From positions 24,025,475-24,089,474 of the forward strand of contig CM067348.1 in the NCBI GenBank assembly GCA_034190875.2: a stretch of 64,000 nt of DNA. The letters are read 5' to 3'. Within the stretch, counting starts at the first letter, position 1. The number at the start of each line of letters is the position of its first letter. The notes under the pieces were generated by a model, which worked only from the letters and a program-made list of their open reading frames with translations, made no database searches and had not been told where the DNA came from. Made by a program: the position numbers and the translations under genes. Positions 7,551 to 50,500 of this stretch are shown piece after piece. Source of the stretch: Urechis unicinctus (Eukaryota > Annelida > Polychaeta > Xenopneusta > Urechidae).

Positions 7551-8162
7551 TAGCCCTACAAGACGTCTGAGTAGACGTCTTATTTTCTCTTGAACCGAAG
7601 AAATGTAAACAATTTGAGAACGATTGAGACAACAACCAAACACCAAACATACCTAAGTTTATGGAGTTTTAGAATGCAATGATGTTCACGGACAATTTTA
7701 TCCCTTCTCGGCGGGGGATTTCATCCATGGTAATTATTTATAGTTCGATCAATTTGGGAAGCGGTAAAAAGTCCGAAACACAGCTACATGTTTGTTTTCA
7801 AGTTCAAGACAACGCGCATCGCGCATGCTCAGGGTGACGTGACCCATCGACGACTAATGCTAAGGCAATGCGGATGAGGCGGCGGGATATGGCGGGAAAT
7901 CACGCGACCCAATAATTCCAATAATGGCGGTCTTCGTATCGCGATTATTCAGAAATGATATATCGATGGCATTTCTTGAAGAATAGCGTCGAGTGGGGGG
8001 AAGTTTTTTGGTGTGTGAGAACTTTTTGTTGTACAGGCTCTTGATATATGTTATTTTCTAGAGGCGTGATGCAGCACTTTAACCCTAACGCGTTTTCTGC
8101 GACGCGCGGAAAATGATCGAAGCGGAATGGTATATATTCATATTACCGTTCGACCGGAGCTG
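7551..8162. mobile_element. 612-bp TAGC-ended non-autonomous element, 9-bp TSD
   Basis: Starts tagccctacaagacgtctg and ends ttaccgttcgaccggagctg, the same termini as the miniature elements at 18.7, 36.2 and 40.0 kb (their last base is A, here G). It is bracketed by a perfect 9-bp direct repeat, aggctctcg, at 7,542-7,550 and 8,163-8,171. The interior has no long frame. A 9-bp target duplication is characteristic of Mutator-like elements; the family assignment is inference. Confidence 0.7.
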
Positions 8163-9019
8163 AGGCTCTCGTAGATATCTCCAGTAAAGACCGAGAATCA
8201 TCCACTCGTTTACAAGGAAAATGCGAATTTGAGTCGATTAATAACAAACTACTACTGTATCACCTCGATAATGTAACACCTACCTTCATTCTGCCATTTG
8301 CACCAGTGACAGATAAATACATATTATTTTGACCCTTTCAGCTGTTTAGCAATAGCAGTGAAAAACGACTGCACGATGCCTTGCGTTCCCTCATATGGCA
8401 ACCGACCAGTGTGAAGTTGGCGCAAAATAGTAGAACCATATAAGACGAGATCTCGCGAGAAGAAAAAGAAGCAAATACCTTATTGCAGATATTACTATGT
8501 TTTCGAGATAGCTTGATATTTTCGTCTGCTACGATATGCTTTATTTTAATGTTGCAATCTTCGATTTATACTGGTAATTGCGGCCAAATGTCAAATATGA
8601 CTCGAGTGCTGTGAGAAATGATAACAAGTGGATCTACAATCACCCGCGTTGTTGTTATCATTCGTTATTAAACTATATATGGTGTGTAAACTTTAGTTTT
8701 GAGCGATATTGAAAGGTTTTTTGTGCAATCAAGTCCATAATAGGATCGGTAAGTTAGAAATCAAAGTTAGAAATCAATGAATTCGAGCACATAATTTTAC
8801 AAAATAAAATATGATTAAAACCAGTTATGAACACATGCTAAATGATATAAACTTGTTGTCTCTCTTGAATGACATTGCATTTTCGCCGAATAGGGATATT
8901 GCTTTCCCATATGTCATGCGTTAATAATCCTAGTGTGAGAGCCTGTCATGTAATGTAAGAATCTGTAGAACCATCCCCTAAGACCCCGCCCCCCCAAAAA
9001 AAAACCCCCTCAGTGATAA

Positions 9020-12010
9020 TAGCATTTAGTGGAAGCTATGTATATTCAGGTCCCGCAAAGCCAAAAATCTCACTTTGAACCCCCTGTAACACAAAAACTG
9101 GGAGGGAAACCCCCGAAGTAACTATAGTTTGCGACTATACACCTACTAGGCTACTCAAAACTGTATCCAGTATACCCCCACCGGCGTTATAACTATCTAG
9201 AACCATTTAGTGGAAGTAATGTGTATTGAGTTAACATAGGGTCCAAAATCTCACTTTCAACATCCTGTAACACAAAAACTGGGAGGGAAACCCCCAAAGT
9301 AACTATGGTCTGCTACTATACACCCACTAGGCTACCCAAAACTGTATCCAGTATACCCCCATCGGCGTTATAACTATCTAGAACCATTTAGTGGAAGCTA
9401 TGTATATTTAGGTCCCGCAAAGCCAAAAATCTCACTTTGAACCCCCTGTAACACAAAAACTGTGAGGGAAACCCCCAAAGTAACTATGGTCTGCTACTAT
9501 ACACCCACTAGGCTACCCAAAACTGTATGCAGTATACCCCCATCGGCGTTATAACTATCTAGAACCATTTAGTGGAAGCTATGTGTATTGAGTTAACATA
9601 GGGTCCGAAATCTCACTTTCAACCCCCTGTAACACAAAAACTGGGAGGGAAACCCCCAAAGTAACTATGGTCTGCTACTATACACCTACTAGTCTTCCCA
9701 AAACTGTATCCAGTATACCCCCATCGGCGTTATAACTATCTAGAACCATTTAGTGGAAGCTATGTATATTTAGGTCCCGCAAAGCCAAAAATCTCACTTT
9801 GAACCCCCTGTAACACAAAAACTGGGAGGGAAACCCCCAAAGTAACTATGGTCTGCTACTATACACCCACTAGGCTACCCAAAACTGTATCCAGTATACC
9901 CCCATCGGCGTTATAACTATCTAGAACCATTTAGTGGAAGCTATGTGTATTGAGGTCCCGCAAAGCCAAAAATCTCACTTTGAACCCCCTGTAACACACA
10001 AACTGAGAGGGAAACCCCCAAAGTAACTATAGTTTGCGACTATACACCTACTAGGCTACTCAAAACTGTATCCAGTATACCCCCATCGGCGTTATCGGCG
10101 TTGTGTATAAACTATCCAGAATCTCATTTAGTGGAAAACCCCCAAAGTAATATGGTCTGCTATTGAGTTCCAGTATACCCCCATCGGCGTCCAAAACCAT
10201 CTCACTTGAGGTCAAAGCAAAAATCTGTTTGAACACACAAAAACTGGGAGGGAAACCCCCAAAGTAACTATGGTCTGCTACTATACACCCACTAGGCTAC
10301 CCAAAACTGTATCCAGTATACCCCCATCGGCGTTATAACTATCTAGAACCATTTAGTGGAAGCTATGTATATTGAGGTCCCGCAAAGCCAAAAATCTCAC
10401 TTTGAACCCCCTGTAACACAAAAACTGGGAGGGAAACCCCCAAAGTAACTATGGTCTGCTACTATACACCCACTAGGCTACCCAAAACTGTATCCAGTAT
10501 ACCCCCATCGGCGTTATAACTATCTAGAACCATTTAGTGGAAGCTATGTATATTGAGGTCCCGCAAAGCCAAAAAATCTCACTTTGAACTCCCTGTTCAA
10601 CAAAGTAACTATGGTCTGCCTATACACCTACTAGTCTTCCCAAAACTGTATCCAATACCCCCATCACAACTAAGAACCATTTAGGGAGCTATGGATTGAG
10701 TTAACATAGGGTCCAAAATCTCACTTTCAACACCCTGTAACACAAAAACTGGGAGGGAAAACCCCCAAAGTAACTATGGTCTGCTACTATACACCCACTA
10801 GGCTACCCAAAACTGTATCCAGTATACCCCCATCGGCGTTATAACTATCTAGAACCATTTAGTGGAAGCTATGTATATTTAGGTCCCGCAAAGCCAAAAA
10901 TCTCACTTTGAACCCCCTGTAACACAAAAACTGTGAGGGAAACCCCCAAAGTAACTATGGTCTGCTACTATACACCCACTAGGCTACCCAAAACTGTATG
11001 CAGTATACCCCCATCGGCGTTATAACTATCTAGAACCATTTAGTGGAAGCTATGTGTATTGAGTTAACATAGGGTCCAAAATCTCACTTTGAACCCCCTG
11101 TAACACAAAAACTGGGAGGGAAACCCCCAAAGTAACTATGGTTTGCTACTATACACCCACTAGGCTACCCAAAACTGTATCCAGTATACCCCCATCGGCG
11201 TTATAACTATCTAGAACCATTTAGTGGAAGCTATGTATATTTAGGTCCCGCAAAGCCAAAAATCTCACTTTGAACCCCCTGTAACACAAAAACTGGGAGG
11301 GAAACCCCCAAAGTAACTATGGTCTGCTACTATACACCTACTAGGCTACCCAAAACTGTATCCAGTATACCCCCATCGGCGTTATAACTATCTAGAACCA
11401 TTTAGTGGAAGCTATGTATATTGAGGTCCCGCAAAGCCAAAAATCTCACTTTGAACCCCCTGTAACACAAAAACTGGGAGGGAAACCCCCAAAGTAACTA
11501 TGGTCTGCTACTATACACCCACTAGGCTACCCAAAACTGTATCCAGTATACCCCCATCGGCGTTATAACTATCTAGAACCATTTTAGTGGAAGCTATGTG
11601 TATTGAGTTAACATAGGGTCCAAAATCTCACTTTCAACCCCCTGTAACACAAAAACTGGGAGGGAAACCCCCAAAGTAACTATGGTCTGCTACTATACAC
11701 CTACTAGTCTTCCCAAAACTGTATCCAGTATACCCCCATCGGCGTTATAACTATCTAGAACCATTTAGTGGAAGCTATGTGTATTGAGTTAACATAGGGT
11801 CCAAAATCTCACTTTCAACACCCTGTAACACAAAAACTGGGAGGGAAACCCCCAAAGTAACTATGGTCTGCTACTATACACCCACTAGGCTACCCAAAAC
11901 TGTATCCAGTATACCCCCATCGGCGTTATAACTATCTAGAACCATTTAGTGGAAGTAATGTGTATTGAGGTCCCGCAAAGCCAAAAATCTCACTTTGAAC
12001 CCCCTGTAAC
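9020..12010 (+). repeat. Left ~181-bp satellite array of the transposon
   Basis: About 16 head-to-tail copies of a ~181-bp unit (landmarks: atctcacttt, aaaaactgggagggaaaccc, actatacacccactaggcta, catcggcgttataactatct, tagaaccatttagtgg). Two unit types differ at one junction: ggtcccgcaaagcc or gagttaacatagggtcc, in an irregular alternating order. Two stretches, about 10,085-10,240 and 10,590-10,700, hold shuffled and deleted fragments of the unit. The same unit occurs in reverse orientation at 16,780-18,060, so the two arrays form very long imperfect inverted repeats inside the element. Confidence 0.95.
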
Positions 12011-12150
12011 GTGGTGGGGTGCATTCCCGTGGTGGGGTGCAGTCCCATGGTGGGGTGCAGTACCGTGGTAAGGTGCAGTCCCGTGGTGGGGTGCAGTCCC
12101 GTGGTGGGGTGCAGTCCCGTGGTAAGGTGCAGTCCCATGGTGGGGTGCAG
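12010..12150 (+). repeat. 18-bp tandem repeat at inner edge of array
   Basis: About eight copies of an 18-bp unit (gtggtggggtgcagtccc with variants gtggtaaggtgcag and catggtggggtgcag) start exactly where the last 181-bp unit breaks off after ccctgtaac. It separates the left satellite array from the coding core. Apparent reading frames here are repeat artefacts. Confidence 0.9.
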
Positions 12151-12232
12151 GTCAGGGTAGGGTCAAGAAATTCCGAGGAGGAGGCCAATCTAATTATTCA
12201 CTCTCAAAGCATTTGACCAAAAAGTAGTCCAT

Positions 12233-13648
12233 GTGTATTACAAGGGAACCCTTAAACATAGCGTTTATGAGAAACATGCTAGACCAATATCAGGGACAGA
12301 AAGGGAATTGAAGAAAAAAATATTGCACTGTGTTAATGCTTCAAGTTTACAATACTACTCAGCGACAAAAAGGTGGGGAAGAACTGTTGGCAGGAAATTT
12401 CAGTGGTATGGGGGTTACCAAGTCAGTGTTAAGGAAAATAAGGAGCGAGAGTAACCAAGAGGATAGACATGATAAAGATTTATTTATTAGTATCATAAGA
12501 ATGAAAAAGCATATGATAGAGAAATCTAGTGGAAGTAAAAAGTCAAAGGTAGAAGGATTCAAACAAAATATTGGTCTTGATCCTTTCTATGTTCATTTTT
12601 ATTCTAAGACGGGTTTGAGAATATGGCATGAGTTATGCAAGAGGGATGTAGTTTTCTTAGATGCAACGGGAGGTATAGCTAAACCTTTAGCAGACGGTAA
12701 AAAAATTTCTTTACTATGAAGTGTCCTTTGCAAACCCTATTAGGAAGGAATCTACTGTACCAGTTGCAGGGATGCTTTCATCAGATCAACAAGCAACTCG
12801 TATAAGAGATTTCCTAGTTCACTTAAAAGATGACGAGAAACGGCTTTTTGGTCATAACAAACCTCAAACCACTCCGATTTTGTTTAATGTAGATGCTGCT
12901 ATGGCCATGATAGTCGCTGTTTTAGATGTCTTTTGTAAGGAGAGTGTTTTGGACTTTTTGAACCGAGGTTGGGAAATAGTCAGCGGGGGTGCTAACGAGC
13001 GAATGTTAAGTGCAACAGTAGTTCATATATGCCTAAGTTATCACATGAAACGTACATCCCGGCATCTAAAAAAAATTAACTTCCTTCCATAAAAACTAGG
13101 ACAAGCATAAGTTTGGTATGTTTTTGATGGGCCTGTTAGTTAATTGTAATTCTCTAGCTGAGGCAGGAGAGGTTTTGCTTGATGGGCTAGTCATTTTAAA
13201 ATCCAAATTTACCAATAAAGTTATTCAAAAACACAGCAGTAGATTGATAAAGAAAATAAATAGTTTTGACACCAGTTTGCGATCGCTTTTTGATAAATCT
13301 GATCTGACTGAAGCAAACAGCATTAACCAGGAGACAAATGAAATGACTGTTGAGGATTTAGAAAAACCAAATTATTTCAGTGAAGAAGAAAAGTTGTTAT
13401 TCAATACATCCTCCCCTTTCCATATCTGGGCATCAGGAATAGAAGAAGAAGCCGATAAAATTGTTGAGGCTTCTTGTGATGTTTCATCAACGACGAAAAA
13501 TAGTCGCTACTCCGTTACTTTTGCCAAGCTATTGTTGAAACTTTGGTTGCCTACATTCCCACTATGGTCAAATTTGTTGCTTGGTGATCCGAGCCGCCAT
13601 TCTAGTAAGTATAAAGTCTTTTACCACACCACTCTCAATTTTAGCTAA
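12233..13648 (+). pseudogene. MULE-like transposase, frameshifted
   Basis: Predicted DNA transposase of the element, in several frames. The central part, once a run of seven A near 12,700 is allowed for, reads from a helical region (VLRKIRSE near 12,430) through GLDPFYVHFYSKTGLRIW to VFLDATGGIAKP (first likely catalytic Asp), then PVAGMLSSDQ, FNVDAAMAMI (second Asp) and ICLSYHMKR, resembling the C-x-H motif after the catalytic core in MULE transposases. The third segment (13,118-13,648) includes GMFLMGLLVNCNSLAEAGEVL and a W-L-P-x-x-P-L-W motif. Frame changes occur near 12,365, 12,700 and 13,100, with in-frame stops around 13,092-13,118. The RNase H-like assignment comes from motif order; I do not know a named family member to match. 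Transcribed away from the left array, upstream of the protease segments. Confidence 0.7.
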
Positions 13649-15037
13649 TGGTACTAACAATACCAGATTTAGATCAGCCTTAGACCCATCTAAAACTACA
13701 AGTGCACAGGAAGAAAGATTTGACTACCTTAAAAATAAAACTTTGGGGGCAGAGAGGGATTAAGATGCGACGAATTATCTGCAACATTGGAAAGGGAATT
13801 TTGTGCTCTGCAACAGAATATATGCAAGACAATTTTTCTGTGCAACAAGAGATGAGACCCCTGCTAGGTATATGGCATCATATTCTGTTCAATTCCCCTG
13901 AACCAGTACCGGATACTTTATTATATAATATGCTGAAGCCAATCGCTGACAAAAGTGAGGATGATGTTTTTTGCTTGAATTATCCAGTAAGCACATTACC
14001 AATATCATCACTCAAAACTACCAAAAGGCCCCTTCATTACTTGGGTTCTGAGAAATTTCCTTATCAAATACAGGTAGATGCCCAGGAGTTCTTCATGGAG
14101 TACATGAGCAGAGAGATGACACGGCTCAAATACCTCATTATGGTAAATATTGCCGATAAACGTAATAAGTTTACCCATTGCTGTATTTCGTTGGCTGTAG
14201 ACTACTTTTTACAGGGATGTTTTTGCTCGGTAACAGATTGACTACAAACGGGAATGTCAGAGGTGCAGGACAGTTACCTTCAAACAAGCAAGTGACACCT
14301 GCTTGGTCCTGACAGTACCCCAGGAGTCTCCAGCAGGTTATTACAGGTCTATTCAGGTTAGTTAGTTTGTCGAAGCTACTTGGCTGAGTACATACCTTAT
14401 CAAACAAAGAAGTCATCTGTAATTGCCCTAGCATAACCTCTCATCAATAGGATATTACACGATTCCATCACTTGGTGCAAGAGATTTTGTAGCAAGATAA
14501 TAATGTGATATTTGGTTTTGTTATTAGGACCTACTAAATGAACACCAAGAACCGCGTCCTATGGAACAGGCCTGCTCCAAATGCTCAACAAGTGCCAGCA
14601 CAGAGACTGTATCCTTTGCCAGTTTACCACCTACACTGGTCATAATTTTAAACAGGTTTGTGTTCAATCAAACTAGTAAATGTGCAGAGAAAAACCGCAA
14701 TGAGGTATATTTAAATGAGGTCATTAATATTGGGGTATCAGATAGTTCAAAACAATCTTACCAACTTCTTAGTTATATTGATCATTGGGGTGATTCACCA
14801 GATTCTGGCCACTATACAGCAAGTGTATTGACATCAATTAGCAATCAAACATATGTGACCCTTTGTAACGACAATATTATATCAACCCAGCTCATGACAA
14901 CCGAGGAACTTGTGGGAAAAAATGCCTATGTTTTAGTGTATATGAAAAAGGGAACATTTCGATACAAAGGTACTATGGATAGAGCCAATAGTCCACGCTC
15001 TATCCAATGCCAAAGGCCTTTTAGATCTAAAGAATGA
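13581..15037 (+). pseudogene. Ubiquitin-specific protease-like domain (USP/UCH)
   Basis: Segment with features of a C19 deubiquitinase. In order: the QEFF helix in VDAQEFFMEYMSREM (about 14,072), a zinc-ribbon CxxC pair (KRECQRC near 14,255 and ACSKCSTS near 14,570), LPPTLVIILNRFVF (14,625-14,670, the usual LPxxLxxxLxRF strand), the catalytic-His box DSGHYTASV (about 14,800) and a terminal AYVLVYMKKG (about 14,925). Between about 14,350 and 14,527 there is a plausible intron (gttagt ... ttattag), and another at about 14,142-14,215. I do not see a clear amino-terminal Cys box (GxxNxGNTCY), so catalytic activity is doubtful. Lies directly downstream of the transposase on the same strand and may be part of one polyprotein or gene. 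Confidence 0.7.
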
Positions 15038-15038
15038 G

Positions 15039-15580
15039 TTGTCAAATAAGTCAGATTCTAGCCTATATAGGGCGAAACATATTCTTAAACTGCTTACTTC
15101 TCACCAACAATTACACAAGCCAAACATAGAGTTAATCTGTAAAAGTGTTATTGGGGTCGCAACTACAACTAGTGCTATTACTTTTTACTGTGCTATGGTT
15201 AAAACACTTACTCAAATGTTTCCGGGGGCTTGGCAACTGCATTTTCAACCATTTTCCATTCTACCAGTAGTTGCCCAGGGTGTATAAAAAATGTAACTTC
15301 CTGTTCTGTGCCATTCATAGATGTCTTTAATTTAACTGCTCACGATTTGCTAAAAAGCCTGTCAGCCTTCATCAGCAAAAAACACAGAGTAAATTCTTGT
15401 AATTGTATGTCAGACCAAAATACCCACCCTGTAGTTGTTTCATCACTACCAAGTACATTGGTAGTGAGACTCAATTCCAATTTAAACAAAATATTAGATT
15501 TTGCATGTGATGTCTCATTTGATAGTTCACATATAATTAATTTACTTTACCCAGGCAGGGTTGTCGTGTGGTTGCTGTGA
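15039..15580 (+). pseudogene. Second USP-like segment, degenerate
   Basis: Read in two frames that overlap near 15,240-15,287. It has a second zinc-ribbon pair (SSCPGC near 15,268 and NSCNC near 15,400) followed by SLPSTLVVRLN (about 15,438-15,470), the same strand motif seen in the preceding USP-like segment. A His box is not visible. It looks like a decayed second UCH domain or the other half of a domain split by rearrangement. It lies one base after the stop of the first segment and runs into the Ulp1 segment. Confidence 0.5.
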
Positions 15581-16470
15581 TTTTCGAACTTAATGACTCA
15601 TTGATGAATGTAAGTTTCTTAAAGGGCAACATTTTTCAAATGGACAACCAGGGGGTTTCACGTCAACTTTCTTCAGCTTCTTTGAAAGAATTACTATTAG
15701 TTACAAACACAGCAATAATTTTTATGAACAAGAATGTTGTTAAACAAACTAATATACCGACCTTGAGGGAAGCAAGATATGAGACAACATCCATTGAAAA
15801 AATTAGTTTAGTTTCGGCCAAGTCTAAACCATCTTATAAACAGTTAAATAACATCTCTCTTGGTGGCCACTTCATCAGTACAGAAACACTATCCAAAATT
15901 AGTAGTTGCAATAGGGATGGGTGGTTCAACAGTGCTGTTATAGATACTTACATGTTTCTTATTAAGAATCATAGTATAAATTCAAAATTGGTTCATGTGG
16001 TGGATTCTGGGTGGATTTTCCAACGTTTGTTTGATTGTAACAAAAAACCATTGCAAAATTTTATAACTCTTCAGTGTTCAATTAAATGGTTTGATTATGA
16101 ATGGGTTTTGATACCATGCAATTCCGACCTCCATTGGATACTGTTTGTTGTGAACACCAAGAGAAACGCCATTTTTACTTGTGACTCCTACTGTGGCACA
16201 CATGATTCAGTTGTGGCTCAAATAGCTAAGTACCTTCATTTTGAGTATATATGTGCAACCGGTAAAAAAATGGAATCTAAATATTGGTCTCATGTTGCTT
16301 ATTGTCAAACTAATAATTTCATAAAACAAAAGGATGGTCATAGCTGTGGGCCATATGTCTGCACCATGGCAAAAGCTCTAGTCTTTAATAAGGTATTTTC
16401 ATTTGAACCCCTGCTTTCTAGACTAACAATTCTTCATGAATTAATAGAACCAGAATTGAAGTTTAATTGA
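15568..16470 (+). CDS. Ulp1/SENP-type cysteine protease (C48), transposon-borne
   Basis: Continuous frame of 300 residues. The carboxy half carries the C48 peptidase signature: DGWFNSAVIDTYMFLI (substrate-side Trp helix), LHWILFVV (catalytic His in H-W), FTCDSYCG (catalytic Asp), and QKDGHSCGPYVCTMA (oxyanion Gln region and catalytic Cys in C-G-P). All three catalytic positions are present, unlike in the upstream protease segments. Family members remove SUMO from proteins; Ulp1-like domains are known passengers or parts of several eukaryotic transposons, including some MULEs. The first ~90 residues look like linker; the chosen start is only the first Met in frame and the domain may be fused to upstream sequence. 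The stop at 16,468 is followed by AATAAA at 16,693. Confidence 0.85.
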   Translation: MVAVIFELNDSLMNVSFLKGNIFQMDNQGVSRQLSSASLKELLLVTNTAIIFMNKNVVKQTNIPTLREARYETTSIEKISLVSAKSKPSYKQLNNISLGGHFISTETLSKISSCNRDGWFNSAVIDTYMFLIKNHSINSKLVHVVDSGWIFQRLFDCNKKPLQNFITLQCSIKWFDYEWVLIPCNSDLHWILFVVNTKRNAIFTCDSYCGTHDSVVAQIAKYLHFEYICATGKKMESKYWSHVAYCQTNNFIKQKDGHSCGPYVCTMAKALVFNKVFSFEPLLSRLTILHELIEPELKFN

Positions 16471-16692
16471 CATATTCATATTCGATAAGGAATTTGCAAT
16501 ATTTGCCAGGGATATCTTTTTCATTGCACATTTACTACTCTGATTGAACAAACATGTGATTAAAAATTGTGAGTAGAGTATATTGTTTACATATCATTAA
16601 ATATTGTTGTATATACACATATTGTATATATTTTGCAAATAAGCCAATTAAATCCCATTCCATGTATGATAATGCGTTAACGGTTTGAAATC

Positions 16693-16698
16693 AATAAA
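16693..16698 (+). terminator. Poly(A) signal AATAAA of transposon gene
   Basis: Canonical AATAAA about 220 bases after the Ulp1 stop codon and before the right satellite array, with a GT/T-rich stretch (tgttcatgtttt, then tgtgcttctgtcattt) shortly after. Consistent with the 3' end of the element's transcript. Confidence 0.5.
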
Positions 16699-16779
16699 GT
16701 TACTGTTCATGTTTTACCTTAATAGCTGTGCTTCTGTCATTTATTTGTTATGAACTGCATGGTCTAAAGTTTAGAGGTT

Positions 16780-18060
16780 TAACTCAATACACATAGCTTC
16801 CACTAAATGGTTCTAGATAGTTATAACGCCGATGGGGGTATACTGGATACAGTTTTGAGTAACCTAGTAGGTGTATAGTCGCAAACTATAGTTACTTTGG
16901 GGGTTTCCCTCTCAGTTTTTGTGTTACAGGGGGTTGAAAGTGAGATTTTTGGCTTTGCGGGACCTAAATATACTTAGCTTCCACTAAATGGTTCTAGATA
17001 GTTATAACGCCGATGGGGGTATACTGGATACAGTTTTGGGTAGCCTAGTGGGTGTATAGTAGCAGACCATAGTTACTTTGGGGGTTTCCCTCCCAGTTTT
17101 TGTGTTACAGGGGGTTCAAAGTGAGATTTTTGGCTTTGCGGGACCTAAATATACATAGCTTCCACTAAATGGTTCTAGAAAGTTATAACGCCGATGGGGG
17201 TATACTGGATACAGTTTTGGGTAGCCTAGTGGGTGTATAGTAGCAGACCATAGTTACTTTGGGGGTTTCCCTCCCAGTTTTTGTGTTACAGGGGGTTCAA
17301 AGTGAGATTTTGGACCCTATGTTAACTCAATACACATAGCTTCCACTAAATGGTTCTAGATAGTTATAACGCCGATGGGGGTATACTGGATACAGTTTTG
17401 GGTAGCCTAGTAGGTGTATAGTAGCAGACCATAGTTACTTTGGGGGTTTCCCTCCCAGTTTTTGTGTTACAGGGGGTTCAAAGTGAGATTTTTGGCTTTG
17501 CGGGACCTCAATACACATAGCTTCCACTAAATGGTTCTAGATAGTTATAACGCCGATGGGGGTATACTGCATGCAGTTTTGAGTAGCCTAGTAGGTGTAT
17601 AGTAGCAGACCATAGTTACTTTGGGGGTTTCCCTCTCAGTTTTTGTGTTACAGGGGGTTCAAAGTGAGATTTTTGGCTTTGCGGGACCTCAATACACATA
17701 GCTTCCACTAAATGGTTCTAGATAGTTATAACGCCGATGGGGGTATACTGGATACAGTTTTGGGTAGCCTAGTGGGTGTATAGTAACAGACCATAGTTAC
17801 TTTGGGTGTTTCCCTCCCAGTTTTTGTGTTACAGGGAGTTGAAAGTGAGATTTTGGACCCTATGTTAACTCAATACACATAACTTCCACTAAATGGTTCT
17901 AGATAGTTATAACGCCGATGGGGGTATACTGGATACAGTTTTGGGTAGCCTAGTGGGTGTATAGTGGCTGACCATAGTTACTTTGGGGGTTTCCCTCCCA
18001 GTTATTGTGTTTCCTAGGGCCAAATATGTGATTTGGGACCCAATGTTAACTCAATATACA
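16780..18060 (-). repeat. Right satellite array, inverted relative to left
   Basis: About seven units of the same ~181-bp satellite as at 9,020-12,010, in reverse-complement orientation (landmarks: ttccactaaatggttctaga, cgccgatgggggtatactg, gggtttccctcccag). Both junction variants are present. The outermost unit ends at a near-palindrome, tcaatatacatagtatgtatattga with its two arms inverted, around 18,050-18,075. Confidence 0.95.
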
Positions 18061-18619
18061 TAGTATGTATATTGATTTACAAAAGTTCACTTGAAGTGGA
18101 TCATGGTTCCCGATTATGTTTAATTATAGTTGTTTATATATGTTTGAAAGGAAATAAACTATTTCTACTTGTCTATATTCGTTCATTCTGTTTAAATATG
18201 CTTTGAATCCTTATATTCCGTTGCAGCCGACCAATCAGCTGATTTGTGTTTACATGCTAAAATTCGGCGTAAGCTATTTGCCGCTCATCTGTACCAGGAA
18301 TAGGTTGTCCCGTCGGGCTCTTATTTGGTTCTACTATTTTGCGCCAGCTTCACACTGGTTGGCAACCGATAGGTGGCGCTTACCTTGCAGATCATAATGC
18401 ACCTAACTCGCCTCTTCGGCGGCTCGACTCAATCCAATCACCAATCACTGTCTCTACTTACGACAAACATCTTTTCCTCTCATATATCAAAACAATGTTC
18501 TCCCAGAATAGTCTCTGCAATGTAGTTAAATATTATGTGAAAAGTATGGAGGATATCCGCATTGGTAGGTTTTCGCCGTTGTATGTACAAGTAATCTGGT
18601 AACACCCCGGGGGTAACAC

Positions 18620-18667
18620 TAGCCGTGCACGACGTTTATATATTTATATTACCGTCGTGTGCGGCTA
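18620..18667. mobile_element. 48-bp palindromic miniature element, perfect 9-bp TSD
   Basis: Begins tagccgtgcacgacg and ends cgtcgtgtgcggcta; the arms pair over about 15 bp around an AT-rich centre (tttatatatttatat). It is flanked by the perfect 9-bp direct repeat gggtaacac at 18,611-18,619 and 18,668-18,676. Far too short to encode anything. Confidence 0.85.
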
Positions 18668-18725: not shown

Positions 18726-18791
18726 TACCCCTACAAGTACAAGACGTCCGAGTAGACGGTTTATATTTATATTACCGTTCGACCGGAGCTA
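18726..18791. mobile_element. 66-bp miniature TAGC-type element
   Basis: Begins tacccctacaagtacaagac (variant of tagccctacaagac, with a small internal duplication) and ends ttaccgttcgaccggagcta. Flanking nonamers atgaataga (18,717-18,725) and atgatttga (18,792-18,800) agree at seven of nine positions, compatible with an aged target duplication. Confidence 0.65.
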
Positions 18792-18931
18792 ATGATTTGA
18801 ATGTGGTCTTTAATCTATTTATTGAAATCTGATTTTGGACTGTGGAAATTTGAAACGTGCGTTGAAGTGAGCTTAGAATGCCACTGTATAAGTGGACTTT
18901 GTGATTGGTATGTTATCTCCTCACCATGTTA

Positions 18932-19241: not shown

Positions 19242-19616
19242 TTTCACCACTTGCTACTATTCATACCCATTATCTTTTCTGTTAATTGGACATATGTTAT
19301 GTTAAATAGGCAACATACTTTTTTTTTAAAAGGTGACCATTAATTTCCATATTCATGATGTAATGTGTGTTGAACTTGAAGCTAGGTCAAAATACCCATT
19401 CATTGTTGTTATTCTCATCCTTAACATCTCTGCCTAATTGGATTTATCATTTAACTTTCAGACTAGTATATCATCAAGCATTCATCCCAATATTATATGA
19501 CATATAAATTATCATTAAACTTTCCGGAAAGTATGTTATGAAATTTTCACCCCATTATGATTTATCAACCACCATACTTTGATTCGAAGGGCAAGGACCA
19601 AGTATCTCCAGTCATC

Positions 19617-22091
19617 ATGTGGGACCCCAACATCACCATCACCATCAACCTCTACTGGTTAACCATCATCTTCATCATCTACACCTTCCTACGAACCTAC
19701 CTCCATCGCCAAATGATCAAAGATGTCTCTGACAAATATGTCCTCATCACGGGTTGTGATTCAGGCTTTGGGAACCGAGCAGCGGTGAGGTTCTCTCGGG
19801 AGGGTTGTCATGTGATTGCTGGGTGTCTGACACAGGAAGGATGTGAGGCAGTTACGAGGGAAGGTAGAGGTGTCGTGGCTGTCAGATTGGATGTGACAAA
19901 TATCAAGAGTATAGAGAGTGCTTATGAGGAGGTGAAGGTGATCGTGCCTGAGTCGGTAGGTGAGGGCATTACTATTTATATTTTCTTTGTTGGCTTTCAG
20001 TTCAGTCGTTTGGTGGAAAATACGTCCCTCTTATTTCATCTCTCTGTCATCTTGTGCTGTGATCCCATTTAAGTGTGGCCAATTGATATTATTAATGGTT
20101 CTGGGTTTTCTGTATAATTGTTTTTATATTTCCCTAACACTGACTTCTGGCTAGTGACTAAAGCGACCTACTATGTTTTATATAATCTGTGCATGATAAA
20201 TAGCAAAGTGTAATAAAATGAATAAAAATCGAAATAATAAATAGTAGCCATTGATCTAGGCTAGCCCTATATGACCTCTGAATGATTCATTTTAAACTAT
20301 GTATTTGTTTGTTTGTGCACAGGGCTCTGGGGTGTTGTCAACAATGCTGGGATGTCTGGTAAATTGGGCCCTATTGATTGGCTGAGCCATGATGATGTCA
20401 CCAAGGTGATTGAGGTCAACGTGACAGGAATGATTGATGTTTCCAGAACCTTCATGCCTATGCTGAAAAAAGCACGAGGCCGACTGGTGAATGTGGCGAG
20501 TATCGTTGGGTCGGTGAACCTGCCTTATAATGGTGTGTACAGCATGACGAAACATGCTGTTGAATCACTGTCAGACTGTATGAGGTAGGTGTGTCCATGA
20601 TGCTGTATCCGATCCTGACTTACCCACCTTATCTATAGGTGTATCCTCCTGAATCTCATATCAGTTTATCTCTTATTATCTTGTACATCTTATTTCTTTA
20701 TTGACCCTTTCTTCATCTAGTTCATTATAATCAACCATTAATCTCATAACATATATAACCTCCAATCATCTTCTATAGTCATCCTCATTTGACATACCAT
20801 ATCCCTGGTTAAACTTTCCTCACCCCGTCCCCAACACCATCCCCATCTTATGTTACACAATTCCAGTCTTGTTCTAGTCACTAATTGTCCTTCAATAGCT
20901 CTTTCTGATTGCCAAGAATCCTTTTCAGTCATGCCAACTCAAATATATTATTTCAAAATAGAACCTCCTTTCTTGGATTTTCTTTTCACAAATGACGTTC
21001 CTAAAATCTCTTTGACAAACTCTTACCATACCTGAATTCCCTTGAAACATCAGTTTTGTCCGGTTTACATGTCTCAGGTGATCACTAATTAATGTCACAG
21101 GATGGAGCTTGAGGCATTTGGGGTGCAGGTGCTCATCATAGAACCAGGCGTTCATAAAACTGCTTTTGTGAACAACATTAGAACATGTGTGAATGCTGCA
21201 TGGGAACAATTGCCTGAGGACAGGAAACAGGAATATGGCAAGGAATATCTGAAATCAGGTGACGGGAGTCATTTATTTTTCTCTGCATTATGCCAGTTTA
21301 TTATAATCAGGTCAAGGTCAATAGTAGTGTACTGATATATATTATATATACTTCATGAGATGCTATGTCATGTTTTTTTAACCTTAGCTTATATGTACTG
21401 TCTGTTGACTAACAAATAAAAAAATATGGAGAAATATAAATTATGCTAGCTGCTGCTGGACATGTTTTTTCTTAATATACTGTATATTATAATCAAGTCA
21501 AATTATTCATTTTTAAGTCAAATTGATGTATTGATTGTTTTTATTTATAATTTGTTATCATACCATCTTTTTGAGATTTTCTGTCGGTTACAAATCCTTC
21601 ATTTAATCATAATGTCGCAAACAAAACTTTTCCTTCTCACTGTTTAGCCCTTAGCACTTAAGTTATCATTGTAGAAAATTTTATCAAAATCGTCCCTTAT
21701 GTTTTTGGATGATCTTGCAAATTGACCTGTTACAATTTGAACAAACTTTTAATATAACTACAGGGGCTACAAGATATGTTAAATGGGACACCGAAGACTG
21801 TCTGATTTTTGATATCTGGTTTTCGATTCCTAACCATCACCACCTGATTATGCTTCAGTCATGTTTCTTGGTTGTGACCTTATCTCTGCGATCGGATCAT
21901 CCAACATCGACCAGATCGTATCCGCCTACCATCACGCCCTCTTCAGCACCAACCCCAAGAGACGCTATATGGTGGGCATGGATACCAAGGTCCTGCGATA
22001 CTTTCATTACATGCCTGGGTGGTTAACGGATGCTATCTTCAGGTTGCCTGGGATGCAGGCCATTCCAGCTTCCATAGCCAAGAGGCCCTGA
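19617..22091 (+). CDS. Short-chain dehydrogenase, retinol/17-beta-HSD type (SDR9C-like)
   Basis: Four exons with consistent phases: 19,617-19,959, 20,323-20,584, 21,101-21,258 and 21,859-22,091, giving 331 residues, close to the 317-330 usual for the RDH/HSD17B6 group. Residues ~10-28 form one hydrophobic membrane anchor; the cofactor motif TGCDSGFG follows at about 45-52, then LDVTN, the NNAG motif (VVNNAGMSG), the catalytic Ser in NVASIVGS and the active-site YSMTK. The PG motif is in IEPGVHKT. Such proteins oxidise or reduce retinol or hydroxysteroids with NAD(P) at the endoplasmic reticulum; the substrate here is not determinable. The Met at 19,617 was preferred to 19,557 because it places the anchor at the very amino end. 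An intron-1 stop is avoided by using the gtgagg donor at 19,960. Confidence 0.9.
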
Positions 22092-24114: not shown

Positions 24115-33588
<9,474 letters not shown>

Positions 33589-40230: not shown

Positions 40231-40805
40231 TCAGCAACATGAAGAGGAATCACAGTGGGATGAACCACAACTTGCGAACATTGTCGTGGTGTTGAACGAA
40301 TAGCCAAATAGATCCATATCCACTTCATACATTTTTTTAAGCTTCTGGACTAACTGGGGAGCAATTCGGGTGTAACTGCTGAGAATTTTGTTCGCTTTCA
40401 AACCCAACGGCTCATGGGTTTCTTCGTCAAGTCGACGCACGTTGAACGACGGGAAATCAGTGACGTTGAGTCGGGATAAAATCGGGGCCATGTCCTGCTC
40501 CAATGTCTCAACCTTCAATATTGTGTCATAATCTATGGAGCAGGGGTAACATTCGTCGATAATTTTGTTCCAATGATGATTGTGTTTTTCCGGTGATTGA
40601 TCCTCTAGGTAACTAATGTATTTCACGAACTCTTGCCATGTGGCACCTTTGCGGTATTCCAGTTGCATATTGCCTCCGTGTGACGTCTTACGAAACATTC
40701 TGATCATCGTTGGTCCATGGTCCGTCCACGTGTACTGGGCTGTGGGATGAGTAAATTTACAATTGTAGCAAGACTCCAAGCGATCAAAGGGATCAGTCAG
40801 CGTGG
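40231..40805 (-). CDS. Carbohydrate sulfotransferase, carboxy-terminal exon (HNK-1 family)
   Basis: Minus-strand exon encoding the end of a Golgi sulfotransferase of the CHST8-14/HNK-1 type (Sulfotransfer_2), which moves sulfate from PAPS to a glycan. Visible features: TDPFDRLESCYNCKF, matching the R-D/H-P-F-x-R-L-x-S-x-Y region near the 3'-phosphate site; FVKYISYLE; HWNKI, followed by CYPCSIDYDTILKVETLEQD, the family hallmark of a C-x-P-C-x-x-x-Y-D block followed by an E-T-L-x-x-D block; then the carboxy tail. The PAPS 5'-phosphosulfate loop (amino-terminal) is not in this exon. Upstream of 40,805 an in-frame stop appears and no earlier exon was found, so this is either the last exon of a gene whose other exons are more distant, or an isolated fragment. 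Confidence 0.7.
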
Positions 40806-41466
40806 TTGCGTTAATTCAAAGACAAGTTTTATGGCATGATAAGCAAACAGAAAGGTCAGGTCCGTACATTCTCTTACCACTGTTTCCAGCAATATCGTCT
40901 ACCTCATGGGCCGGGCGTCCTGGGGCGCTCGTTGATAGCCTACAGGCCCGAGTCACACATCTGTATATTTATTGGTCGTTATTTAATCATTAATGGCTAC
41001 TCAGACCATATTATTGGCTTCACCTTATTGCAGCTATCTCATGAAATCGAGGTGCAGCCAATTTGAACGAATATATTTCGTACGTGTAGGGGCGATATCA
41101 GCATGATTTTTTGCAGAGTTGCTGGAGGAAGTATTATTTATTTGCTATAATGCATTATACTGCTGTTCGTTATTCTTCAGTTTTGTATGAATTTCAGCTG
41201 TTGGTTTCATATCAATTTACCAATCAGCGAACCGACTATAAACCAGGATTCGCTTAAAACTGCCTTTAGAATTCCATATACGCATGCGTGGCATTTAATA
41301 GATTCTTAATAACCTCTTGGTCCAGCTCGTGGCCCCTCCAAAGTGTAATCGCCAAACACAGTTACAGTGTGAGAGGGAATTCCTCTGGAAGCCTGTTTAG
41401 ATGTATTCTGTTCCTCCTGAATCTCATAGTGGGAGTAGCCACATTGAATGAACGTGAACTACACTT
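40806..41466. other. Region without recognised feature
   Basis: I see no gene, repeat array or mobile-element end here. It separates the sulfotransferase exon from the Gypsy fragment. Confidence 0.4.
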
Positions 41467-43589: not shown

Positions 43590-44881
43590 TCACATATACA
43601 CAAAATCTTTGTGTTTGTTAGGCTTTGGCTGTCGACCTGATCTTGCAACGGTTGGCGTTTTTGCTGTAGACGCAGGTGAAGAAGCCCCTGGAGGTGTTTG
43701 AGTTGTTTTAAGTGGAGTAGGACAAGTACTAGAAGTAGGGATCGGGACAGGCGTTTCATGCGCTAGCATCTTTGTAGGATCAGGTGGTTCAAGTGGGTTA
43801 GATGCTGGTGGTACACATAATTCTTCTGGTAGGGGTGAAACACAGTCCCGGATGTCAGTTGGGAGGGAGTGATGTTCAAATGGATGGACAGCTCCATTCT
43901 TCTCACCAGCCGATTGTTTTCCTCGACGGTGATCCAATAGGAGTCGGGCTGAGGGTGTCTTGACTCTATGGAGCCTGGTTTCCATTCAGGACAACCATCT
44001 TCCGTGAACCAAATAGGCTGATCCGGAACATATTCATCTCTTGATGTCTGAGTTGGGTTTAGGTGAGCAGCTCTCTTGTCTGCTAGTTTAGTCCGTTGCG
44101 AATCGCTGAGCTGAGAAGGTTGATACATCTTCCCAAGACGTGTGTTAATTCTTCTGTTGAAGAATAATTCTGCGGGCGAAGGTAGCTCACTGCTTGCCGG
44201 TGTATCATGGTATGCCAGTATCGCCATAGTCACTTGTAGCTCATTCTTGCACTTCTTTATCATCTGCTTCATAGTTTGTATGGCTCTCTCAGCACGCCCA
44301 TTTCCTTGGTGATAATGTGGACTTGACGTTGTGTGCTTGATTTCAAGAGTGTCACAGAAATTTTTGAACTTTTCAGATTTGAAGCATGGTCCGTTGTCAG
44401 ATATTATTCTTTCTGCAAGCCCGAACTTGCGAAAGTTGTTATTGAGTGATCTAATGACTGCATCTGACGTTGTGGATGTGATATAGTCAATAGTCATATA
44501 TCCGGAGAAGTAGTCGACTGAGACAAGTGCGGACTTACCTTGGATGTCCATAAGGTCTGTGGCAACAATTTCCATTGGGCGAGACGCTGCCACTTGACGA
44601 TCTGGGGCTCGAGGTTTTTGGTTTGCATGAATCTGACAGTCACTGCAGTGCAAAACCATTGCTTTGACATCGTCTTGTAAGTTTGGCCAATAAACGGTTC
44701 TCCTGGCACGCTGGAGTGTGGCTGTAAGACCTTGATGACCATCATGGAGTCGACGGAGAGTTTCCTCACGCAATGTTGATGGAACTAACACACGGTTGCC
44801 TTTCATAAGGAGTCCATCCAGGACAGCTAGTTCATCACGAAAACACCAGTACGGGCGGAGGCTATCTGAAAGAAGCTGCAT
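43590..44881 (-). pseudogene. Gypsy integrase
   Basis: Long minus-strand frame from MQLLSDSLRPYW with the HHCC zinc finger (HDGHQGLTATLQ ... HCSDCQIH), then the DDE core: ATDLMDIQGK (Asp), ISDNGPCFKSEKF (Asp) and HQGNGRAERAIQTMK (Glu), all three catalytic residues present, followed by the tail region. A frame change near 43,985 separates the proline-rich carboxy tail (to 43,590). Lies downstream of the RNase H part (44,903-45,121), separated by a stop. Confidence 0.9.
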
Positions 44882-44902
44882 ACTGTCAGGCCAACCTTCG
44901 AT

Positions 44903-46752
44903 TTATGTGCTCTCTAAGTTTTGAAAAGACAGGGTCAAACTTGGTTTCCTCTTGAAGTGTGTCGGTCTGATCTTCAGAACCAGTGCAATATTCACATCAA
45001 GATTGGCAATGGCAGGATGAGTTCCTGGTTGGACTAGTCTGGAGAGTGTGTCTGCCAATAGAACACTCTTTGCTCCCACATACTTAACTTGAAGATTATA
45101 TATCCTCAACCTCAGCAGCATTCGCTGAAGGCGAGCCGGGGTGAGGCTGATCGGTTTCCGGAGAATCGACTTGGCTTGTGGTCAGTGTGTATTGTGACAA
45201 GTCTGCCAAACACATAAACATGAAGCTTCTCACAAGCGAACAGAACTGCCAGGAGCTCTCTTTCAATATTCGAGTAGTCAGATTCTGTCTTTGTGAGTGA
45301 TTTGCTGAGGAACTTCACAGGTCTGCCGTCTTGAATGAGCACAGCACCCAAACTTTTCAGAGAAGCATCAGTTTCTATAATGGTTGGTTTGCTGGTGTCA
45401 AAGTGTGTGAGTTGAGTGGCGCGTGCAATTGCCTGTTTGATGGTGTCAAATTCCTGTTGCATGTCCCCTGTCCACACAAAGTGAACGTCTTTTTTCATAA
45501 GACTTCGCATCATGAACGTTTTCTTGGACAAATTGGGAATGTGAGTTGCCATGAAGTTGACTGAGCCGAGGAAACTTTGAAGTTCCTGTTTATTTTCTGG
45601 AGGTTGCAATTCCAGGATGGCTTTCACTTTCTTCGGATATGGCTCAACACCATGTGGGGAAATTACACGCCCAAAGTATTCAATTTTCTGTCTTTTGATT
45701 CGACATTTGTCAGGATTGAATTTGATCCCTGCAGTGCAAGCTTTGCTAATGGTTTCAAGGAGGTGTATGTTGTGCCGCTCTTCCGTGGACCCTTGAACCT
45801 TAATGTCATCAGCACATGGGAATGTGCCAGGAATACCTGCCATAGCCTTGTCCATCTGTTCACAAAATATTTCAGAGGACACTGACAATCCAAAAGGTAA
45901 CCTGACAAAACAATACTTCTTGAGCGGCGTGTTAAATGCTGTGAGATGCTGCCTTTTGTCGCCGAGTTTTTTGGTCCAGTAACCGCTTTTCGCATCAAGT
46001 GTGGAGAAGTATTGCCCTTTACTGAAGCTATGTTGTGCATCTTCCCAAGAGGCTGTGTAGTGCACACTCCGAATGAGGTATCGGTTGAGATTTTGCGGAT
46101 CCAGGCAGATTCGAATGTCACCATTTTTCTTGGAGACGATGACGAGGTTGTGGACCCAGTTGGTCGTTTCAGGGCAGGGTTTGATAATGCCTTCTTTTTC
46201 CATCTTGTCCAACTCTTGTTTGAGCTTGGGTAATACACTTAGAGCGACGGCACGAGGAGGTAACTGGACAGGTTTGGCCTCTGGTGATAACTTAAGTTCA
46301 ACCTCACCTTCAAATAGGCCGACTGTTCCGTCGAATGTTTCAGGAAAAATGACCTTCAGGTCATTGAGCGGATCGCCTGTTTTCTTCCCCAGTGGAAGGT
46401 GTTTCTTCCATTTCTGCTGAAGGGATATGTAATTGACTTCACTCTCTTCAGTGATATGAACAGCTTCAATGTTCCGATCCATGTTTACGTTGCTTTGGAT
46501 ACAAGTTTTAGCTACATCCACTAGCTTGAAAAGTTTGCAGAAATCAAGCCCCAGGATAAGTTCACTGCCAAGTTCAGTAACCATAATCTTGACCTTATCC
46601 GTGTGTTTATTACAGGTAGCCTTGACTGTCAGCTCACCACAGTTTATCATATCAGCACCTGTCACGCCACGCAACCGTGTTTTACTTGGAGTGAGATCAT
46701 TGCGACACAGCCCAATATCTTCAAACATCAACAATGGTATGCACGTCACCAT
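44903..46752 (-). pseudogene. Gypsy protease, reverse transcriptase and RNase H
   Basis: Minus strand. The protease Asp lies at the frame junction (VDTGA near 46,752), with LILGLDFC as its flap-side partner. Reverse transcriptase follows with RLPFGLSVSSEIFCEQMD and CADDIKV, where the usual Tyr/Phe of the x-x-D-D box is Cys. RNase H has ETDASLKSLGAVL, SNIERELLAVLFA and VTIHTDHKP. A frame change after the last motif moves to 44,903-45,121 (VKYVGAKSVLLADTLSRL). The Cys in the catalytic box and the frame break suggest loss of activity. Confidence 0.88.
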
Positions 46753-47570
46753 GCACCTGTGTCAACCTTGCCTTGAAGTACAGCTGGAGTCGGCGTGTGA
46801 AATTTAACATCAGCGAGAATCTCTCTCGTCTTGCCATCTACACTATTGACAGAGACAACACCAACATCATATGCAGATCCACGGTCATCATCACTGGAAT
46901 CAGTCTCTGACGCCTGTACCTCATTCTGGGTTTTGGGCTTGCCTTTGCATTTTTGCTTGAATTTGCATGCTCTCTCAAAATGGCCCCTCTTGTAGCAAAA
47001 ATTGCACTTCATCCCTTTAGCTGGGCATTCGGCATTCGTCATAGGGGTGTGGACTGCCACCACATCAAGCACACTTTTTCTTCCTATCAGCATCTGGCTT
47101 CAAGGCTGTTGGTTTGGACCTCATCTTGCTTTTCTGGCCATTTGGCTGGGACTGTTTAGTTGGGTCTCTTGAGTATGTTGCATTAATCTGGCATGACTCA
47201 CTTAGATGTTTCATTGTGATGTCTACCGCCTCATACTGGCGTAACAGGTCTAGACAGTTTTTAACAGTAACATCTTTCCCTCTTGACATTAGTTTGCGTT
47301 TGCACTCAGCAATGGTGCACCCATGGATGAGCTTGTCTACGATCAGGAAGTCAGACTGCTCTGGGAAGTCTGCTAAGCGAAATAGTTCTAATAATCTGCT
47401 GTAGAAAGTTGTTGTGTTTTCACTTGGTTTCTGTCTGACATTGTAAAAGTCCTCTCTTGCTTCTCGGAAGAGAGTTGAGTGAGTGAGACATTTCGCGAGA
47501 CAATCGAGCAGGTCTTCTGCTTTTTGTATCCTCATGTCTGGATGTTCTGACTGTCTGGCCTCTATCAACG
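46746..47570 (-). pseudogene. Gypsy gag with zinc knuckle, truncated
   Basis: Minus-strand gag: a helical domain (FYNVRQKPSENTTTFYSRLL, LADFPEQSDFLIVDKLIHGC), a basic linker and, in the next frame, a CCHC zinc knuckle (CNFCYKRGHFERAC near 46,975) after ECPAKGMK. A TGA stop and a frame shift lie between linker and knuckle around 47,050-47,065. Residues before TLIEARQSEHPD come from flanking NRF intron DNA, so the true gag start is missing. Confidence 0.85.
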
Positions 47571-50500
47571 TTTCTGAAATGATAATTAGATTTGATGACA
47601 TTATGTATACGTGTGTTGTCTGTGTGTACAGTGCATGGGGTGGACATGGTATCTGGCTAATGACTTCCAGTTCTACGTCATTGCCCCACTCTTTGTCTTT
47701 TTCCTCTATAGGTGAGTGTCATAGTGTGATTTCCATTCGGCGTCCGTCCCCTGAACGACAACTAACTCTCTGTGCAAAGCAAAGAGTATCGCTTCTGGCT
47801 TCTGGGCTGCAAAAGCTTATTTTACAGGAGAAAAACAAATGGATGTCACACATGGCGATATGGATGTATAATGGCAGTGAATAGCGCTTGTAAGTTGAAA
47901 ACATAAGCCTCAAACTTAATTCCATCGCACGGAAGCCGTAGTCTATACGCATAGGCGCATTGTTATCAAATCACCACGCTGATGCGATGTATATCAACTC
48001 CGAATTATGTAATATTTTTCAAAGCGATTATAAATTATTATCTTTAGATGGCCAAAGATTGGAATCCCGCTTCTGGCTGCAGGATTCGCTGGCCATATAG
48101 CGGCAACAGGCTACATTACACAGTACGTGATATCTGTAAGAATACCGGACCTTATTTCATTGCGTTTCTGTTAGTTTTTCACAGATGCTAATGAATATAT
48201 TGGGTTTCTTCTAGCCAGGTTGAAATAGGCAACATGGATGGTATGGCTGACCTGTATATCAAACCATGGTGTCGATTTGGGCCTTATGCTATAGGAATAC
48301 TAACTGGCCACATTATGTACAGAACCAAATGCAAGGCAAACATCCATTGGGTAATTATACCTTCTTATTGGTTTTTAAAAATATTATTCCTATCATCATG
48401 ATACGTCATAATTGCTCAATTCTATCACTCCCTATTTCATCATACATCTCTCACCGTTGTAGACATCATATAGCGCTCTGATATTTGCGTACCGTTAAAC
48501 GCTATACTGACCTTACATTCCTTCGATGCGGCACTTTTAATGAGATAATCGTCTTAAGGCAGCTGCTTTTTTCTGTCTGAACAGACTATTATTGCACTGG
48601 GTTGGATTTTAGCTATCGTTTTCTTTACGGCATCAGTGTATGGTAACTTCCAACGCCAATGGCGCTGTGAAGAATGTAATGGATACTGGAGTTTAGGTTT
48701 ACACGTGTTTTTTCTTCACCATCCGCCGACCTTTATTTGCTGCCGCTGTAGCCTGGATGATGTTTGCTTGCTGTTCCGGATATGGCGGTATTCTTCCTTC
48801 TACGTCACCATCAACATATATTTGAAGATTAACCAATTTACTATATGATCTTCATTATTTGATTATAAATTCATTCTTAAGAGGCTTGCGACTTCAATGT
48901 ATCATACCACGATTGGCCCAGATAAATCCTATCGTAAGAGCTTTGATTTGTGTCGTCTGTTTGTAGCGTTTATCAACACATTTCTCTCGTGGAAGGTGTT
49001 CGTCCCGCTGGGAAAGTTAACCTACGTCGGCTACCTTATTCACCCCATACTGCTCTATTACTTCTACTACGCCGGCAAGCGACTTGTCTATGTGGATGAA
49101 CTGACAATGGTGAGATGTGTCTTTGTGTTGAGCTGGGTGTGATTGTGAGGAGCTGGGTGTGATTGTGTGAAGCATGTTGTGATTGAGGTGTGGGTGTGGT
49201 GTGTGTGTGAAGCATGTTGTGATTGTGCATAGTTGAGGGTGTAGTGATTGTGTGGGTGTGATCGTGGGGAGTGGGTGTGTTGTGATGTGGTGGGCGTGAT
49301 TGTGAGGAGGTGGTGGGTGTGTGATTGTGAGAAGCTGGGCGTGATTGTGGTGGAGGTGGGTGTGTTTGTGAGAACAGTTATGTGATTGGTGGAGCGGGTG
49401 TGATTTGTGGAACAGGGTATGATGTTTGTGGAGGTATGGGGTGTGGTGGTGTGGGAGGTTGGTGTGATTGTGTGGAGCGGGGTGTGATTTGGGCGAACTG
49501 GGTGTGATTGTGTGGATCTGGGTAGCATTTTGTCGAGCTGTATTGGTTTACCCGGGTGTTGGCATGATGCGAGGGGTTGTGTGTGATTTTAGCTGGATGT
49601 GATTTAGAGTAGCTGTGTTTGACTGTGAGAGATGGGTGGGGTAGTCAAGGGGTTGTGTGTGAGTGAGAGGGATGGGTATGGTAGTCAAGGGGTTGTGTGT
49701 GAGTGAGAGGGATGGGTGTGGTAGTCAAGGGGTTAAGTGTGAGGGAGAGGGATGGGTGTGGTAGTCAAGGGGTTAAGTGTGAGGGAGAGAGATGGGTGTG
49801 GTTTTGATGGGTTGTAGGACGATTGTGAGAGAGTGTTGTAGGGGATATAATCAGAACGATGCTACTTTGGTATTCCGTTTATTGTTGGAAGAAAACCTTC
49901 GACAGGTTTCTTTTTAATTACTTTTGGTGTATCATACCTTCGACATTTGTTTTGCTGTACGTATATTTATTGTATACTGCGTGTAGATAATCGCCAACTT
50001 TCTGTACATTACTGTGTACTGTGTGTACATTATTGTGTGCTGTGTGTACATTGGCATGTTCGATGTGAACATTATAATGTGTGTAGATTACTATTAACTG
50101 TGTGTTCATTACCGTTAACTGTATGTCGGTTTCCATGTTCTGTGCGTACATTACCGTATACTGTGTGTAGATTTTCGTGTATTGTGTGTAGATTGTCGTG
50201 TATTGTGTGAAGATTACCGTGAACTGTTTGTGGATTACTGTGTACTATGTGTAGATCATTGTTTACTGTTTGTAGAATATTTTGTAGTGTGTATAGATTG
50301 CAATGTATTGTGTGTAGGTTGTGGTGTATTGTATGAAGATTATCGTATACTGGTTATTGTGCACTGTGCGTACACTATTGTGTACTGTGTGTACATTATT
50401 GTGTATTGTGTGTATATTATTGTGTACTGTGTGTACATTATTGTGTACTGTGTGTACACTATTGTGTACTGTGTGTACATTATTGTGTATTGTGTGTATA

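Follow-up and report, generated by a model that had tools for sequence, protein, structure and literature searches.

What kind of mobile element lies within positions 24,025,475 to 24,089,474 of contig CM067348.1 of Urechis unicinctus, and do the two peptidase segments that it contains belong to its own transposition machinery? We analysed this stretch of 64,000 nucleotides (hereafter the window), in which a first-pass annotation had described a complete Mutator-like transposon carrying deubiquitinase-like and SUMO-protease-like genes. That interpretation is partly supported. The observed anatomy of the element is confirmed: 9,955 bp are bounded by inverted 41-bp ends and a perfect 9-bp duplication, TGGCAACCG, and the ends, the duplication, the internal repeat arrays, the family identities and order of the peptidases, and the broken state of the copy are established here. 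We lean, with modest confidence, towards regarding it as the decayed remains of a large DNA transposon that moved by cut-and-paste, was of the Mutator type in a broad sense, and carried both a ubiquitin-specific peptidase (USP) and an Ulp1 peptidase.

Boundaries and internal repeat arrays

The length, the inverted ends and the duplication given by the first-pass annotation were all borne out. The inverted match of the ends reaches 41 bp, of which 39 are identical, and the 34-base end ACCAGTGTGAAG[T/C]TGGCGCAAAATAGTAGAACCA has two matches in the window, at 8405-8438 (+) and 18326-18359 (-), with zero mismatches each. A search of the whole window allowing up to 3 mismatches yielded no further copy of this end, and 0 matches were expected from the 100 shuffles that served as a control.

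The word TGGCAACCG is present in only 2 copies in the 64 kb, both abutting the outer side of an end. As 0.30 copies are expected by chance and two or more appeared in 2 of 100 shuffles, such a pair could arise fortuitously, and it is therefore its position, not the count, that is informative. Shifting the end by one base destroys the adjacency on the right side, thus the 9-bp reading suits both ends.

In a boundary scan for 12-bp inverted words flanked by a direct repeat of at least 8 bp, 96 pairs were left after removal of 10,218 low-complexity pairs; among the 20 listed, 1 corresponds to the element ends and 19 lie within the 181-bp arrays described below. First-order Markov simulations gave a pair of any kind in 0 of 20 cases, a control that belongs to the scan before low-complexity filtering, which was dominated by AT repeats. 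On the basis of the end search, the simulations and the filtered scan, we reject a chance origin of the ends.

Inside the element, the coding part is flanked by two arrays of the same 181-bp unit in inverted orientation (Table 1), which were absent from the first-pass description. The units form two linker subtypes, intermixed in the left and right arrays alike, and blastn with one unit (E 1e-5) found 27 places, all within or bordering the two arrays. The non-array parts of the element had no blastn match elsewhere in the window (E 1e-3). The inverted arrays may contain repeated binding or promoter sites.

Table 1. Features of the element, with positions in the window
Feature	Position	Strand	Description
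Left target-site duplication	8396..8404	.	TGGCAACCG, 9 bp
Left terminal inverted repeat	8405..8445	+	41 bp, identical to the right one at 39/41
Left array	9023..12010	+	181-bp unit, 16.4 copies (Tandem Repeats Finder, TRF), some copies broken
Short-unit array	12010..12150	+	18-bp unit, 7.8 copies
Transposase remnant, main part	12197..13604	+	four frame pieces; D motifs (12654-12674, 12883-12909), CxxxH (13027-13044)
Putative intron	13605..13644	+	40 bp, GT..AG, phase fits
Transposase C-terminal piece	13645..13760	+	candidate catalytic E in QEERFDYLK (13707-13733)
USP exon	13762..14142	+	possible Cys box GILCSATEYMQ (13795-13827), VDAQEFF (14074-14094)
Intron	14143..14236	+	GT..AG, in phase
USP exon	14237..14356	+	first CxxC
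Intron	14357..14527	+	GT..AG, in phase
USP exon	14528..15037	+	second CxxC, SGHYTA His box, CND box
Region between the peptidases	14946..15580	+	two frames; weakly resembles a degenerate second USP-like half
Ulp1/C48 peptidase	15541..16470	+	309-aa open frame; H, D, Q, C present
Possible polyadenylation signal	16693..16698	+	AATAAA
Right array	16783..18011	-	same 181-bp unit, inverted, 6.8 copies (TRF)
Right terminal inverted repeat	18319..18359	-	
Right target-site duplication	18360..18368	.	9 bp

Transposase remnant and peptidase segments

All the described coding parts lie on one strand and stop before the AATAAA and the right array. The transposase pieces (12197-13760) are spread over all three frames, and the putative intron between the last two is uncertain because it is short. 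When the read-through of these pieces was compared with a collection of 5.8 billion proteins, two relatives were found among the 7992 candidates to which scoring was limited. P0001 (source ENA) has 62% identity and covers 53% of the query; P0002, of the bdelloid rotifer Didymodactylos carnosus, has 27% identity and covers 52%. The three sequences share 56 invariant columns, including DATGG, RKIRSE and ARPI, and a profile built from them again retrieved only P0001 and P0002 from the collection.

The first-pass annotation had reported D, D and C-x-H motifs. Both D residues stand and are common to both relatives; the third motif, however, reads CLSYH in this decayed copy, i.e. CxxxH, one residue more than CxxH. 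It lies, like the candidate E, beyond the part that the relatives cover. The spacing is 76 residues between the two D, 45 from the second D to C, and 256 from the second D to the candidate E.

The element matches P0001 from residue 165 of the latter onward, and no tblastn match to residues 1-164 was found in the element (E<=10). A C-x4-C in the N-terminus of P0001, taken together with an H...H kept in the element copy, looks like a zinc finger; P0001 aligned weakly (E 0.11) with the PHD-zinc-finger-like model zf-HC5HC2H_2, most of that part being missing from the copy in the window.

Other comparisons yielded little. The transposase read-through matched no Pfam family at all, PHROGs gave nothing better than E 0.026 and NCBIfam had no match; the transposase profile had two matches in PDB (E 0.14 and 0.16), and an Rfam scan had no match. 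Searches for relatives in viral and prokaryote contigs were unproductive, and nothing useful was obtained with P0001 in phages or with a consensus of Mutator-like elements (MULEs) in viral contigs.

The segment that follows is, judged by family similarity, a C19 ubiquitin-specific peptidase. Spliced across its two in-phase intron joins, it matches Pfam UCH with an E-value of 3.3e-17 and 63.4 bits (cut-off 23.9), and it also matches 10 distinct PDB sequences (USP35, USP15, USP46, USP4) at 7e-7 to 7e-4. The His and CND boxes are legible and fall inside the UCH match. The open frame further downstream matches Pfam Peptidase_C48 (8.8e-15, 55.6 bits, cut-off 20.7) and SENP1 (2.7e-10), with the catalytic blocks aligned; in NCBIfam it reached an Ulp1-family model at E 9e-4, far below the cut-off. 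The succession of USP-like and Ulp1 segments proposed in the first-pass annotation is thus upheld, both being past the Pfam cut-offs.

The region between the two peptidases carries CxxC- and CxC-type motifs. It had no Pfam match, and PDB gave one chance-level match (E 2.6). Aligned as a single sequence with the USP part by hhalign, it gave 26 columns at P 0.0059, the best of 30 shuffles being 0.015, a weak hint that it may represent a second USP.

Readings of the element and its surroundings

From the ends, the duplication and the motifs, we infer cut-and-paste transposition with 9-bp staggered insertion. The transposase of an intact relative would have a zinc finger and an RNase-H-like core of the DDE type (two aspartates and a glutamate); it would attach to the 41-bp ends and excise the element, which would then insert at a 9-bp staggered cut. 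The C19 and C48 peptidases would be encoded by the same element on the same strand, possibly within a single coding unit. From their family membership it follows that they would act on ubiquitin and SUMO. Most likely they would free the transposase, or host proteins located at the element, of both modifiers, the targets perhaps being the transposase, chromatin or repair factors; such deconjugation would stabilise the transposase or loosen repression or repair checkpoints. The pairing of USP and Ulp1 may thereby help such elements to deal with the host cell.

Several observations weigh against this reading, the first being the state of the copy. There are about seven frame changes in the coding part (near 12377, 12705, 13090, 13758, 14990, 15217 and 15541), three of them within the transposase, and an in-frame TAG directly upstream of 13100. 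For the two near 13758 and 14990, a boundary between genes or exons is an alternative. Some frame changes fall within or close to A or G runs, therefore base-calling errors are possible; the TAG and the unmatched N-terminal part speak for decay. The pol of a neighbouring Gypsy element is broken too. An intact element is rejected on account of the frame changes, the TAG and the 164 unmatched N-terminal residues of P0001, so that the word 'complete' in the first-pass annotation holds for the ends and not for the coding part. USP Cys boxes usually read GNTC, and the candidate one of the element (GILC) is atypical and located upstream of, and outside, the UCH match.

The available copies add to these difficulties. 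A single copy of the element is known, and one damaged copy cannot establish the USP and Ulp1 pairing as a trait of a lineage. A search for a fused relative of transposase and peptidase (residues 100-1300 of the 1305-aa read-through) gave 0 at E<=1e-3 among 4079 candidates, with low power, since ordinary USP or SENP proteins were also not returned. P0001 and P0002, which are partial or short and come from contigs 1877 and 3529 bases long, show no peptidase domain; both being transposase-only, the relatives lend no support to a joint travel of the peptidases with the transposase.

The Mutator-like label requires separate consideration. The 9-bp duplication lies within the 8-11 bp range of MULEs, the 41-bp ends are terminal inverted repeats, and the combination of a 9-bp duplication with a minisatellite, known from Rehavkus, is also found here, with arrays on both sides. 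Arthropod MULEs have D-D distances of 60-76 in most families (84 in Ghost) and D-E distances mostly of 120-135 and up to 214 (PMC13359780; here and below, statements on published systems refer to the portions of the cited papers that were available). The D-D spacing of the element falls within the former range, and its distance of 256 to the candidate E is outside the latter. Muta1 depends on D214, D283, H307, W401 and E419 (PMC5225508).

On the other hand, a Pfam MULE match was obtained for 0 of 3 sequences (read-through, P0001 and P0002) at a limit of E 10, although HMMER filters discard most matches above about E 0.1 and P0001 and P0002 do not extend beyond the first half of the core. Between the second D and the candidate E, this decayed copy has CxxxH where MULEs have C/DxxH. 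The three-sequence transposase profile compared with 13 IS256 sequences gave P 0.63 for the core and 0.46 for the full length, no better than 40 shuffles (lowest 0.025), and P 0.23 with the MULE consensus, again no better than 40 shuffles; the positive control (the MULE consensus against IS256) was itself weak, P 0.0033, which leaves the comparison little power. Given the missing MULE match and a profile comparison at shuffle level, 'Mutator-like' is a statement on anatomy, based on the duplication, the ends and the D-D spacing.

The same results could be explained if the transposase represents a separate DDE lineage, outside the described MULE clades, that happens to make 9-bp duplications. 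The missing MULE match, the CxxxH, the 45- and 256-residue distances and the shuffle-level scores are as this explanation would have them; the duplication, the terminal inverted repeats and the D-D spacing speak for a MULE, and the profile test had little power. We regard such a lineage as possible but rather unlikely, and it does not conflict with what our preferred explanation says on the peptidases. As the transposase is unrecognised by Pfam, present-day profile libraries may lack it. Slightly more doubtful still is a bolder proposal, according to which the element would belong to an undescribed animal DDE transposon lineage outside both the MULE and the Rehavkus clades in their present delimitation, with its own ubiquitin- and SUMO-deconjugating enzymes as a standing transposition gene set, perhaps comprising three peptidase-like domains with a degenerate second USP half.

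Alternatively, the peptidase segments could be cargo, i.e. pieces of the USP and SENP genes of the host, captured in the manner of Pack-MULEs and never serving transposition. The introns kept by the USP part would agree with this, as would the failure to find a second copy or, in the low-power search, a fused relative, and the return of only P0001 and P0002 in the protein-profile search; moreover, MULEs often capture genes (PMC6431247, PMC13317346). However, both peptidases retain catalytic blocks and are located directly 3' of the transposase on the same strand, the Ulp1 reading frame runs uninterrupted for 309 aa while the transposase is broken, and Ulp1 is recurrent in Mutator and Ginger1 elements (PMC2836005). 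Capture appears improbable to us. Least credible is a composite of two nested or fused elements, the transposase coming from one and USP/Ulp1 from the other and moved together once: frame changes near the joints, the arrays around the core and the one known copy could be so explained, but the window contains no further copy of the terminal inverted repeat and no blastn match of the non-array parts outside the element (E 1e-3), no search having been aimed at the internal junctions and 25 of 107 inverted pairs being listed.

The surroundings of the element were also inspected. A motif like taccgttcgaccggagct occurs on either flank, at about 8143-8163 and 18772-18792, with looser forms near 18650 and 18960. 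A tandem repeat occupies positions 1-600, its unit, judged by eye, being like atatgatggcgctat. Host-type gene pieces include a short-chain dehydrogenase (19542-20072, +), an acyl-CoA dehydrogenase (26887-27285, -) and a sulfotransferase (40231-40815, -); together with the introns and the rotifer relative, these pieces point to an animal-like genome. The remnant of a Gypsy-type long terminal repeat retrotransposon at 43763-47718 (-) has an integrase, an RNase H and a reverse transcriptase domain, each in a frame of its own; its 47065-47718 piece had no Pfam match. Repeat-rich blocks about 13 kb apart are alike in their open reading frame translations (49017-49588 and 62093-62578; 50263-50937 and 63284-63850), as if one stretch had been duplicated.

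Comparison with known transposons

The first-pass annotation had suggested that the combination of USP and Ulp1 with an animal MULE-like transposase may be an undescribed lineage. Among the papers listed in our literature searches, subscription papers and Repbase being outside them, no single transposon carrying both appeared. The novelty is reduced in that each peptidase type taken alone is already in print together with transposases, Ulp1 from Mutators of animals and C19 next to a DNA transposase, and an OTU domain is known from a hydra MULE. Transposons unrelated to one another repeatedly carry deubiquitinase or SUMO-protease domains (OTU or Ulp1 in Ginger1, Ulp1 in Mutators). An element combining a USP with an Ulp1 would show clearly that both modifier pathways touch transposition, and its relatives would allow this link to be tested. 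A repair role has been proposed for OTU and Ulp1 in transposons (PMC2836005). In plants, related copies become hypomethylated through the action of Vandal elements that carry KIU and have an Ulp1 domain, although Ulp1 itself has no assigned role in this (PMC13317346).

Ginger1 transposases have a C-terminal OTU or Ulp1 (PMC2836005) and resemble the element as DNA transposons carrying Ulp1, but they differ in their Gypsy-integrase-like transposase, and Table 1 of that paper gives no C19 for them. No Pfam match to a Gypsy-integrase-like core was found in the transposase of the element. The Trichomonas protein XP_001314237.1 (cited in PMC2836005) joins a DNA transposase to Peptidase C19, in which it resembles the element; its transposase, however, is of the transposase_11 type, and the available text mentions no Ulp1. 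MuDR-6_HM of hydra (Table 1 of PMC6446971) shows that a MULE in an animal can carry a domain of deubiquitinase type; this domain is OTU and not C19, and its row contains no Ulp1.

The Mutators (MuDR) of hydra, lancelet and plants that carry an Ulp1 domain (PMC2836005; for plants also PMC13317346) share with the element the association of a Mutator-type transposon with Ulp1. They differ in that the accessible passages mention no USP for them, and the transposase of our element lacks detectable similarity to the Pfam MULE family. In its repeats and target site, the element is comparable to Rehavkus, the Foldback-like Tm1 and Muta5, which combine 8-10 bp (mostly 9-bp) duplications with minisatellites or subterminal tandem repeats (PMC6446971, PMC3169594, PMC5225508). 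No peptidase is mentioned for these three in the portions available, and Rehavkus is distinguished by a PHD finger and by a minisatellite that precedes the 3' terminal inverted repeat. The repeat units of Tm1 (13-15 bp) and Muta5 (15 bp) are shorter than the 181-bp unit of the element.

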